Source of the DNA: a virus
Strand: one strand, 5' to 3'
Length of the DNA stretch: 60,403 bases
Virus record (IMG/VR): IMGVR_UViG_3300021335_000018
Span: 1 to 60,403 of that record
The translations under genes were made by a program, and so were the position numbers. The notes beneath the pieces were generated by a model. The model saw only the letters and a program-made list of their open reading frames with translations. It searched no databases and was not told the origin of the DNA. This document shows, one piece after another, positions 51,286 to 53,347 of this stretch. Numbering within the stretch: position 1 is the stretch's first letter; every line of letters starts with the position of its first letter.

Positions 51286-51314
51286 ATTATACATATTTAA
51301 TAACGTCTTGTCAA
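51286..51314 (-). promoter_or_regulatory. Consensus sigma70 promoter for the phosphoesterase-ligase operon
   Basis: TTGACA (51314-51309), 17 nt, TATAAT (51291-51286). Its start site, near 51279, falls within the opposing late box at 51276-51283. Confidence 0.88.
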
Positions 51315-51647: not shown

Positions 51648-51741
51648 TGGTAGTCCCGGGGGGATTCGAACCCCCATCGCTCTCTAATCTGGAGACTGTG
51701 CCGAGTATAAGCCGGGTGTTTTACCGTTAAACTACGGGACT
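51648..51741 (-). tRNA. tRNA, anticodon UAU (Ile) by position, with long variable arm
   Basis: 94 nt with encoded CCA. Acceptor AGTCCCG/CGGGACT is perfect; D arm GTTT-AACGGTA-AAAC; anticodon arm CCCGG-CTTATAC-TCGGC with one mismatch, giving TAT; T arm GGGGG-TTCGAAT-CCCCC. Between anticodon and T arms are 24 nt, able to fold as TCTC-CAGATTA-GAGA. Ile tRNAs are normally class I, so the long arm is odd. A degenerate tRNA or other identity is possible. Confidence 0.7.
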
Positions 51742-51744
51742 ATA

Positions 51745-51820
51745 TGGTGCGCCTGGAGAGATTCGAACTCCCAATCAACCCGTTATGAGCGGGGGGCTTT
51801 AACCGTTAAGCTACAAGCGC
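51745..51820 (-). tRNA. tRNA-Met or Ile2 (CAT anticodon)
   Basis: 76 nt with encoded CCA. Acceptor GCGCTTG/CAGGCGC, anticodon loop CTCATAA, T arm GGGAG-TTCGAAT-CTCTC. The G1-C72 pair argues against an initiator. A CAT anticodon could be elongator Met or lysidine-modified Ile (AUA). Confidence 0.88.
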
Positions 51821-51826
51821 ATATTT

Positions 51827-51902
51827 TGGAGTGGGTGAGGAGACTCGAACTCCCATAACACGGATTTGCAATCCGGTCCGTAACCATTCCGGACACACCC
51901 AC
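51827..51902 (-). tRNA. tRNA-Cys (GCA)
   Basis: 76 nt with encoded CCA; acceptor GTGGGTG/CACCCAC, anticodon loop TTGCAAA, T arm GGGAG-TTCGAGT-CTCCT, discriminator U as in Cys tRNAs. Confidence 0.92.
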
Positions 51903-51906
51903 AAAT

Positions 51907-51980
51907 TGGCATAGGTGAAGGGAATCGAACCCCTATCTTCAGTTTTGGAGACTGACATGTTACCATTACACCACACCCAT
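51907..51980 (-). tRNA. tRNA-Trp (CCA)
   Basis: 74 nt with encoded CCA; acceptor ATGGGTG/CACCTAT, anticodon stem TCAGT/ACTGA with loop CTCCAAA, discriminator G. Its 5' end abuts the T-run of the terminator at 51981-52016. Confidence 0.92.
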
Positions 51981-52016
51981 AAAAAAAGCCCCTAACATTA
52001 TTAGTGCTAGGGGCTT
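51981..52016 (-). terminator. Rho-independent terminator (minus strand)
   Basis: AAGCCCCTA (52016-52008) pairs with TAGGGGCTT (51994-51986) in a nine-pair stem, followed by seven T residues at 51987-51981. This ends transcripts arriving from higher coordinates, right at the 5' end of tRNA-Trp. Confidence 0.88.
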
Positions 52017-52130
52017 ATCTTAAATTACTTTTTCAAAAAGTCGTGTTAAGACATACCCCCTTTTGGTGGCCAACATATTATACATATTGTGTTAGTCTTA
52101 ATCACGTATCTATTCCTTCTTTTTTAGTAT
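51981..52130 (-). ncRNA. Candidate structured small RNA with own promoter and terminator
   Basis: From the predicted start (52130) to the terminator is about 150 nt with no convincing gene. CGTGATTAAGAC (52106-52095) pairs with GTCTTAACACG (52052-52042): 11 pairs with one bulged A. Inside it, ACAATAT-GTATA-ATATGT and TGG-CCA-CCA can form hairpins. ACTTTT-TGA-AAAAGT (52041-52027) stacks directly on the 3' side, then the terminator. A GTG-started 19-aa frame (52105-52046) overlaps the stem and is probably fortuitous. Confidence 0.55.
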
Positions 52131-52136
52131 TTTTAT

Positions 52137-52165
52137 ACTATACTATCTTTATTTTGCGTTGTCAA
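52137..52165 (-). promoter_or_regulatory. Sigma70 promoter for the candidate small RNA
   Basis: TTGACA (52165-52160), 17 nt, TATAGT (52142-52137). It lies in the last codons and stop region of the small zinc-ribbon gene at 52149. Confidence 0.7.
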
Positions 52166-52424: not shown

Positions 52425-52614
52425 TGTACTGCCTTTCAATGTATTTAGCATTGGTGCGCCTGGAGGGACTTGAACCCCCACGCCGTAAAGCACTAGAACC
52501 TAAATCTAGCGTGTCTACCAATTTCACCACAGGCGCTTTTCTTTTAACTCGACAAATAGGGCAGAACCTGCCTTCCGGCAATTCAAAATTACATTCTGGA
52601 CATTTTTCTACCAT
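52417..52614 (-). CDS. Small zinc-ribbon ORF running through tRNA-Leu
   Basis: 65 codons with a strong AAGGAG 7 nt before the ATG. The first 23 residues form a rubredoxin-like knuckle pair (EKCPECNFELPEGRFCPICR). From codon 27 to about 54 the frame is the tRNA-Leu gene itself, so the C-terminus is tRNA-derived. The real peptide may effectively be the N-terminal ribbon, as tRNA processing would cut the mRNA. Start supported; C-terminus doubtful. Confidence 0.45.
   Translation of the reverse strand: MVEKCPECNFELPEGRFCPICRVKRKAPVVKLVDTLDLGSSALRRGGSSPSRRTNAKYIERQYNV
52452..52536 (-). tRNA. tRNA-Leu (TAG)
   Basis: 85 nt class II tRNA with encoded CCA; acceptor GCGCCTG/CAGGCGC, anticodon stem CTAGA/TCTAG with loop TTTAGGT, long variable arm, T arm GGGGG-TTCAAGT-CCCTC. 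It lies wholly inside the 65-codon zinc-ribbon frame. Confidence 0.93.
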
Positions 52615-52630
52615 ATTTGTCTCCTTAAAA

Positions 52631-52706
52631 TGGTGCTGGTTGAGAGACTCGAACTCCCGACCTGAGGTTTACAAAACCCCTGCTCTACCAACTGAGCTAA
52701 ACCAGC
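52631..52706 (-). tRNA. tRNA-Thr (TGT)
   Basis: 76 nt with encoded CCA; acceptor GCTGGTT/AACCAGC, D arm GCTC-AGTTGGTA-GAGC, anticodon stem GGGGT/ACCTC with loop TTTGTAA (TGT), T arm GGGAG-TTCGAGT-CTCTC. Confidence 0.92.
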
Positions 52707-52728
52707 GTGTGTTATTTAACATCAAGTA

Positions 52729-52802
52729 TGGAGCGGGTAAGGAGAATCGAACTCCTATCCTCAGCTTGGAAGGCTGCGATAATACCATTATACTATACCC
52801 GC
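52729..52802 (-). tRNA. tRNA-Gly (TCC)
   Basis: 74 nt with encoded CCA; acceptor GCGGGTA/TACCCGC, anticodon stem CAGC/GCTG with loop CTTCCAA, T arm AGGAG-TTCGATT-CTCCT. Confidence 0.93.
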
Positions 52803-52803
52803 A

Positions 52804-52893
52804 TGGCAGAGAGGAAGGGATTCGAACCCTCGGAACGCTTACACGTTCAACACCTTAGCAGGGTGCCGCTTTCGACCACTCAGCCACCTCTCT
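52804..52893 (-). tRNA. tRNA-Ser (GCT)
   Basis: 90 nt class II tRNA with encoded CCA; acceptor AGAGAGG/CCTCTCT, anticodon loop CTGCTAA, variable arm GAACG-TGTAAG-CGTTC, T arm GAGGG-TTCGAAT-CCCTT, discriminator G. Confidence 0.93.
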
Positions 52894-52900
52894 GTATTTT

Positions 52901-53347
52901 TTACTTATTGAACCTCAGTGTCTGTTTACGACCGTTGTGATAAAACGTTACTGTGCTATGACTATATACTTCACGAGCTGTTTCTTCATACCGTGTTTCT
53001 ATACTGCATTGCCGTTCTGTTCGATAACCAGTTACGCCTTGCTTGCTTTGATTCTTATCAGCGGCAATCATACCACCAATGACAGCACCAGCGGCTGCAC
53101 CATTGTCTTTGTTAGTGACACCTTTACCAATAAGTCCTCCAATGATCATTCCGCCTAGTACATCACCTGCACTAGCGCCGCCGCCAACATTGCCATAAAT
53201 AGGAGTTTGTACATCTTTACAAACTTCAACTCTATACGGCGTTTGTTCAATTACAGTTTTAAAATGATCTTGGATACTTGCAGATGTATCAGCAATAGCC
53301 GGAGTGGTAATTGCCAATAAACCTGCGATTAAAAACATTTTTTTCAT
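52901..53347 (-). CDS. Glycine-zipper outer-membrane lipoprotein-like/17-kDa-antigen-type exported protein
   Basis: 148 aa. A cleavable signal peptide (MKKMFLIAGLLAITTPAIADT) is followed by a Gly-zipper region, VGGGASAGDVLGGMIIGGLI and GAAAGAVIGGMIAAD, the hallmark of the Rickettsia 17-kDa surface-antigen family, then a C-terminal beta part with paired Cys (VEVCKDV earlier, RQCSIETRYEE). No lipobox Cys after the signal. It should insert in or coat the outer membrane; a role in superinfection exclusion is speculative. Signal-bearing phage proteins of this type are uncommon. Confidence 0.75.
   Translation of the reverse strand: MKKMFLIAGLLAITTPAIADTSASIQDHFKTVIEQTPYRVEVCKDVQTPIYGNVGGGASAGDVLGGMIIGGLIGKGVTNKDNGAAAGAVIGGMIAADKNQSKQGVTGYRTERQCSIETRYEETAREVYSHSTVTFYHNGRKQTLRFNK

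Follow-up and report, generated by a model that had tools for sequence, protein, structure and literature searches.

A promoter, a leader ORF and a terminator precede a phage tRNA operon

The window analyzed here is a 60,403-nt stretch of viral DNA, positions 1–60,403 of IMG/VR record IMGVR_UViG_3300021335_000018. On its minus strand, a leader element lies directly ahead of four tRNA genes, with the following features (positions are those of the window).

52137..52165, minus strand: sigma-70-type promoter TTGACA-17-TATAGT, read from the sequence and conserved in distinct leaders
52113..52118, minus strand: Shine-Dalgarno AAGGAA of the leader ORF, present in all 83 distinct leaders
52095..52106, minus strand: region 1, 5' arm of stem 1:2, covering the start codon (fold; covariation with region 2)
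52046..52105, minus strand: leader peptide ORF, VIKTNTICIICWPPKGGMS, 19 aa, from a GTG start to a TAA stop (83 distinct leaders carry a homologous ORF)
52070..52087, minus strand: predicted sensor codons ATA TGT ATA ATA TGT TGG (codon-tRNA association)
52042..52060, minus strand: region 2, holding the stop codon; 52052–52042 pairs with region 1 and 52060–52046 with region 3
52027..52041, minus strand: A/T hairpin, in the loop of predicted antiterminator 2:3 (fold)
52009..52023, minus strand: region 3, which supplies the 3' arm of antiterminator 2:3 and shares bases with the 5' arm of the terminator (fold, all leaders)
51981..52016, minus strand: regions 3:4, an intrinsic terminator of 12 pairs, followed by seven T at 51987–51981 (fold)
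51907..51980, minus strand: tRNA-Trp(cca), first gene of the operon proposed to be controlled, and first after the terminator at every leader locus
51827..51902, minus strand: tRNA-Cys(gca)
51745..51820, minus strand: CAT-anticodon tRNA, called Met, accompanying ATA codons in leaders
51648..51741, minus strand: tRNA-Ile(tat), AUA reader with a long variable arm

The promoter consists of TTGACA at 52165–52160, a 17-nt spacer and TATAGT at 52142–52137, where the first-pass annotation had placed it. It occurs at the same place in relatives, scoring at least 10/12 in 70/76 leaders versus 2/76 shuffles. Against 200 dinucleotide shuffles, the fold of the 155-nt leader span is better by 5.3 sd. Its minimum-energy structure includes three elements that had been drawn from the sequence beforehand: the 11-pair stem and its bulged A, the A/T hairpin, and the terminator (52016–51986) with its seven T directly before tRNA-Trp, which starts at 51980, immediately behind the T run. 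The same annotation had dismissed the 19-aa GTG frame as not credible. This did not hold, as the frame has an AAGGAA Shine-Dalgarno sequence, is conserved in relatives and, in our reading, is the sensor. A competing 14-pair antiterminator, 2:3, had also been missed.

Several further features surround the leader. The −35 box falls within the 3' end of a 57-aa ORF (52322–52149) located directly upstream, which is small, Cys-rich and zinc-ribbon-like. An inverted repeat, TAGTAT-N9-ATACTA, at 52145–52126 spans the −10 box and the start site, and relatives carry similar repeats, such as TGTAT-N5-ATACA; the repeat at 52145–52126 is a possible operator. Upstream, a second tRNA group (Ser-Gly-Thr-Leu, 52452–52893) follows directly after a lipoprotein-like gene (52901–53347). 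We found no comparable leader ahead of this group, so just one of the two tRNA groups looks attenuated. Downstream of the tRNAs, a metallophosphoesterase gene is preceded by a 12/12 sigma-70 promoter, TTGACA-17-TATAAT, at 51286–51314. The tRNA-Ile(tat) gene is 94 nt long, and its long variable arm, unusual for an isoleucine tRNA, is kept in most relatives.

The leader is conserved across IMG/VR loci

We scanned IMG/VR with the neighboring phosphoesterase, which gave 80 loci, and obtained further loci by using the sensor, region 2 and the terminator as search patterns. In total, 170 loci with 83 distinct leaders were collected, bearing out the expectation that the region would be conserved. All 83 leaders have an ORF of 15–24 codons, a Shine-Dalgarno sequence, a TGG codon and a terminator, the invariance of TGG being partly by construction because the ORF finder demanded that codon. 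The only failing terminators were contig-end truncations or unrelated upstream ones. ARAGORN called tRNA-Trp as the first gene after the terminator in 80/82 cases; in the remaining two (L138 and L194) it missed the gene, which is recognizable there by eye. Of the loci retrieved by the neighboring protein only, 54 contain tRNA-Trp, and each of these has the leader or, at a contig edge, its terminator.

A pattern scan of bacterial genomes in GTDB found no leader; its sole match (L179) was rejected as a chance hit without the leader or terminator layout. Isolate phages searched by DNA similarity gave matches to tRNA genes only and no leader. Four isolate tRNA arrays around tRNA-Trp are without leader and terminator at that place, and in three isolates that encode a related phosphoesterase no tRNA array is annotated there. 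In Erythrobacter phage vB_EliS-L02 (L244:2937), ARAGORN places a tmRNA gene, with tag VNDNDVVVARDEVRLAA, at the end of the tRNA array.

Leader codons match the tRNA genes downstream

Each of the six sensor codons in the window (codons 7–12) has a reader among the four tRNAs of the adjoining downstream operon. Given phage codon usage, a run of six codons like this would arise by chance with a probability of ~1.5e-9 per site. We evaluated the association between leader codons and tRNA genes in 65 distinct leader-operon pairs, each with at least 1.4 kb of downstream sequence. Two or more ATA codons were found for 16/16 operons with Ile(tat) or a CAT tRNA versus 1/49 without (p=2.6e-14); L065, with an ATA-rich leader and an operon without an AUA-reading tRNA, is an exception. 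A Cys codon was present for 38/38 operons with tRNA-Cys versus 18/27 without, TCA for 7/9 with Ser(tga) versus 8/56, two Tyr codons for 3/3 with tRNA-Tyr versus 0/62, a Gln codon for 6/7 with tRNA-Gln versus 13/58, a Glu codon for 3/6 with tRNA-Glu versus 0/59, and an Arg(acg) codon for 3/6 with that tRNA versus 4/59. Gly codons were also associated with Gly tRNA. No association was seen in these 65 pairs for Arg(gcg), Lys and Ala, which are represented in the leader in 0/7, 0/2 and 0/2 cases, respectively. Like Cys codons (18/27), Pro codons are often kept in operons without the tRNA (32/35), and those for Pro are uninformative because nearly all leaders carry them.

When operons were shuffled among leaders, the observed match stood out at z=9.7 for tRNAs with a codon and z=11.2 for codons with a tRNA. 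It was confined to the ORF frame (z=9.7/11.5), the other two frames giving −3.7/−3.1 and −0.6/−0.5. Kinship was controlled with a tree built from leader flanks, terminator and tRNA-Trp but not from the sensor codons. Where phylogenetically independent pairs differed in a tRNA, the codon was concordant 31 times and discordant 0 times, although the pooled sign-test p is too small by some factor because a few pairs serve for more than one tRNA. Leaders also fit their own operons better than those of their 3–12 nearest neighbors (p 0.0002–0.0013). These sequence comparisons indicate that relatedness does not explain the codon-tRNA match. Loci found by the neighboring protein only, with no leader sequence used, gave z=4.8 and 5.4 over 24 pairs, so the signal is not an effect of how the loci were fetched. 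Examples of leaders and their operons, ending with three close pairs, are as follows.

L004: CGT TGG TGC CCG CCA; tRNAs Trp, Pro, Cys, Arg(acg)
L102: TCA TCA TTA CAG TGT TGG TGC CCA TCA; tRNAs Trp, Pro, Ser(tga), Cys
L021: TAT TTG TAT TGG TGC CCG CCA; tRNAs Trp, Pro, Tyr, Cys
L216: TGT TGG CGC CGC; tRNAs Trp, Arg(acg), Cys
L034: GAA TGG TGT GGT TGT GAA; tRNAs Trp, Cys, Glu
L194: ATA ATA TTA ATA TGC TGG TGC CCA; tRNAs Trp, Pro, Cys, CAT, Ile(tat)
L190 (Ile, Tyr, Pro): CCG ATA TAT TGG TAC CCA ATA
L193, partner of L190 (Ile, Pro, no Tyr): CCG ATA TTT TGG TGC CCA ATA
L148 (Gly, no Cys): ATA ATA GGT TGG CCA TCA
L171, partner of L148 (Cys, no Gly): ATA ATA TGT TGG CCA TCA
L027 (no Ser): TGG TGC CCA CCA
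L028, partner of L027 (Ser gained): TGG TGC CCA TCA

The leaders also bear on the identity of the CAT-anticodon tRNA. CAT tRNAs accompany ATA-rich leaders in the window (51745–51820) and in L009, L086, L092, L134 and L204, and all five operons with a CAT tRNA but without Ile(tat) have an ATA-rich leader. The CAT tRNA has a C at acceptor position 4, as in tRNA-Ile2. Because ATA-rich leaders accompany it and it has this base, it is probably an AUA-reading tRNA-Ile2 rather than tRNA-Met. Leader codons help to re-annotate CAT tRNAs of these operons as AUA readers.

An inner hairpin lies within the sensor (52070–52090), of the form ACAA..UUGG in many leaders and with the compensatory variants CAAUUU/AAAUUG, CAAUAU/AUAUUG and CAUC/GAUG. 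It is possibly an RNA polymerase pause hairpin. A purely structural cause of the codon pattern was considered, as in many leaders this hairpin pairs the codons before TGG with codons 5–6, and was rejected: the hairpin accounts for part of the choice among Cys, Asn and Tyr, not for the link to tRNA genes.

Mutually exclusive helices follow the modeled position of the ribosome

Stem 1:2 joins 52106–52095 to 52052–52042 (11 pairs, one bulged A), and antiterminator 2:3 joins 52060–52046 to 52023–52009 (14 pairs, one mismatch, −20.6 kcal/mol for the nascent segment). The two pairings are mutually exclusive, and region 3 comprises the 5' side of the terminator together with the bases preceding it. 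A role of the A/T hairpin as a switch element was rejected, as it simply occupies the loop of 2:3.

We modeled 81 leaders with and without a ribosome. Without one, 1:2 formed in 89% and 3:4 in 100%, with 1:2 weak or absent in the fold of nine leaders. For a ribosome stalled at TGG, the RNA 3' of it was folded as far as the terminator loop, and 2:3 formed in 81/81 leaders (median −20.1 kcal/mol, z −3.9). With the ribosome at the stop codon, 3:4 formed in 81/81.

Covariation in relatives, which the first-pass annotation had proposed as a check on the 11-pair stem, was found there: the first base of the start codon covaries with its partner (A-U 24, G-C 11, other 2). Base 6 goes with the choice between UGA and UAA as stop codon, and the true register of 1:2 has 91.7% standard pairs versus 29–40% when slid. 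The GGGG/CCCC core of 2:3 is invariant across leaders, so covariation says little for this helix. In the distant clade of L034, both 2:3 and 3:4 can be built from different sequence.

The leader as a probable ribosome-mediated attenuator

We interpret the leader as a ribosome-mediated transcription attenuator of the trp-leader type that controls the phage tRNA-Trp/Cys/Met(cat)/Ile(tat) operon, with a probability of roughly 0.9. A short ORF with a ribosome binding site lies between promoter and terminator, its regulatory codons are cognate to what the operon supplies, here the tRNA itself, and in silico the mutually exclusive helices 1:2, 2:3 and 3:4 have an outcome set by ribosome position. 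Weighing against this reading are the operon tRNAs that have no codon in the leader (Arg(gcg), Lys, Ala), the Cys and Pro codons kept where the operon has no such tRNA, the exception L065, the invariant core of 2:3 and the nine leaders whose 1:2 is weak or missing.

From the anatomy of the leader, its conservation, the codon-tRNA matching and the foldability of the competing structures in relatives, we infer switching, its direction and its physiological signal. RNA polymerase would start at ~52130, with a ribosome trailing on the 19-codon leader. If tRNAs for AUA, UGU/UGC or UGG were scarce, the ribosome would stall at codons 7–12, region 1 could not reach region 2, and antiterminator 2:3 would form, permitting read-through into tRNA-Trp, -Cys, -CAT and -Ile(UAU), which would relieve the stall. 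As a stall at any sensor codon would lead to the same outcome, the leader would act as an OR gate over several tRNA species. If the sensed tRNAs were plentiful, the ribosome would mask region 2 from the stop codon, and terminator 3:4 would leave a short leader RNA only; this terminated transcript probably exists as the "off" product. Without translation, 1:2 would form and the terminator would likewise win. The earlier remark that the tRNAs need another promoter or read-through would thus be answered on its second branch, by regulated read-through, with the terminator serving as the operon's attenuator.

When the A site of the ribosome is at the Trp codon, its footprint leaves region 1 uncovered, immediately on the 5' side. 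Because region 1 precedes the sensor codons, stalls at the last of these would have to block 1:2 by steric separation of its arms on either side of the ribosome, not by direct masking. Candidate causes of stalling are tRNA dosage feedback, host shut-off and a host tRNA-cleaving defense, the last of which agrees with what phage tRNAs are known to do against retron-Eco7.

Alternative explanations of the leader

The first-pass annotation had proposed a structured regulatory RNA, and this part stands, as the leader has its own promoter and terminator and is conserved. Its further proposal, a discrete trans-acting or scaffold RNA without coding content, does not, because the codons track the tRNAs. 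Such a small RNA, to which the ORF and the downstream tRNAs would be incidental, would account for the promoter, the terminator, the strong fold and the conservation, and the "off" transcript of an attenuator would look identical to it. We nevertheless consider it very improbable, since the Shine-Dalgarno sequence and ORF are retained in 83/83 leaders, the element always lies directly ahead of tRNA-Trp, and its most variable part varies with the downstream tRNA genes in one reading frame only. The cis arrangement explains the conservation of the leader. Nor is the leader easily read as the gene of a small functional protein with its own terminator that precedes the tRNAs by chance. A peptide core such as M-x-K-T-N-T-..-C-W-P-P is conserved, but outside residues dictated by the tRNA set or by either helix the peptide is free to vary, as VIKTNTICIICWPPKGGMS, VLRTIQQSSLQCWCPSQGRGMS and MNTKYTNNYEWCGCEPPGGVL illustrate, and the start and stop regions are under constraint as RNA arms, which leaves this explanation scarcely credible.

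Direct sensing of the T-box kind, in which an uncharged tRNA pairs with the leader and no translation is involved, would have the same outcome, a tRNA-responsive terminator, and the invariant UGG recalls the T-box UGGN. However, one leader matches up to five different tRNAs, and Rfam gave no T-box match even at E≤5. Synonymous wobble codons are interchangeable in the sensor (TGT/TGC, CCA/CCG/CCT, TCA/TCG, TAT/TAC, CGT/CGC, CAA/CAG), with Shine-Dalgarno sequence, start, stop and frame retained, so that frame and wobble codons point to translation, and we give direct sensing next to no weight. That the terminator is strong and abuts a tRNA would also suit a plain insulator without regulated antitermination, the tRNAs being served by other promoters. 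This would leave unexplained why a strong promoter pointing at the tRNAs is conserved, why the competing helix 2:3 is kept in 81/81 leaders and why the codons match, and we judge it highly unlikely.

Comparison with known leaders and phage tRNAs

The general logic of trp-leader-type attenuation has been described (PMC1183508). The phage leader resembles the trp, his, thr and phe leaders of Enterobacteria (RF00513, RF00514, RF00506, RF01859) in its short translated ORF, Shine-Dalgarno sequence and run of regulatory codons, and in its mutually exclusive 1:2, 2:3 and 3:4 helices with a U-run terminator. It differs from them in occurring in phages, in controlling tRNA genes rather than amino-acid biosynthesis or synthetase genes, in sensing up to five tRNA species with mixed codons, and in having a region 1 that covers the start codon, with the stop codon inside region 2; in the trp leader, unlike here, region 1 does not precede the sensor codons. 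Consistent with the first-pass statement that no named family has this fold, Rfam searches at the gathering score and at E≤5 returned nothing above threshold. Amino-acid leaders scored far below their cut-offs (Thr 25.1 vs 55, His 20.9 vs 49, Phe 15.4 vs 55, Trp 14.4 vs 41); that several of them are among the sub-threshold matches is suggestive but is not evidence. T-box riboswitches share the choice between terminator and antiterminator set by tRNA level, but there the tRNA binds the RNA directly, no ribosome takes part, and the response is to a single tRNA.

Phage-made tRNAs that compensate for missing host tRNAs offer another likeness. In phages T5 and SP15, tRNA-Tyr replaces host tRNA cleaved by retron-Eco7/PtuAB, and the sections of that paper considered here report its production from a strong promoter and describe no conditional control (PMC11555353). 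Anticodon-loop variants have been found among phage tRNAs that replace defense-cleaved host tRNAs (PMC10264068). Compared with T5 and SP15 as described in those sections, the operon studied here would be expressed conditionally, on shortage of an encoded tRNA.

Implications for phage tRNA genes

Searches of open-licence papers turned up no report in which leader-peptide attenuation controls tRNA operons or phage tRNAs, and to our knowledge there is no earlier case of tRNA genes under codon-sensing attenuation. The class of mechanism is an established one. Applying it to tRNA genes, through a mixed-codon sensor that is rewritten alongside operon content, appears to be new. We suggest tentatively, at somewhat less than even odds, that a large marine phage group carries a multi-input sensor of tRNA shortage, which would release matching tRNAs only when those of the host are missing and would be rewritten with each tRNA gain or loss. 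Host tRNA loss might follow, for example, a tRNA-cleaving defense or phage-driven host shut-off.

The presence of tRNA genes in phages has been the subject of decades of debate, the main ideas being codon compensation and defense evasion. A leader that tests the codons of its own tRNAs would amount to the phage's own statement of which tRNAs it needs and when, and would make the "shortage" hypothesis directly testable, codon by codon. It would offer a natural multi-codon sensor of tRNA depletion, and tRNA demand would become readable from metagenomic sequence alone. If this reading is true, a phage could sense and repair a shortage of particular host tRNAs.
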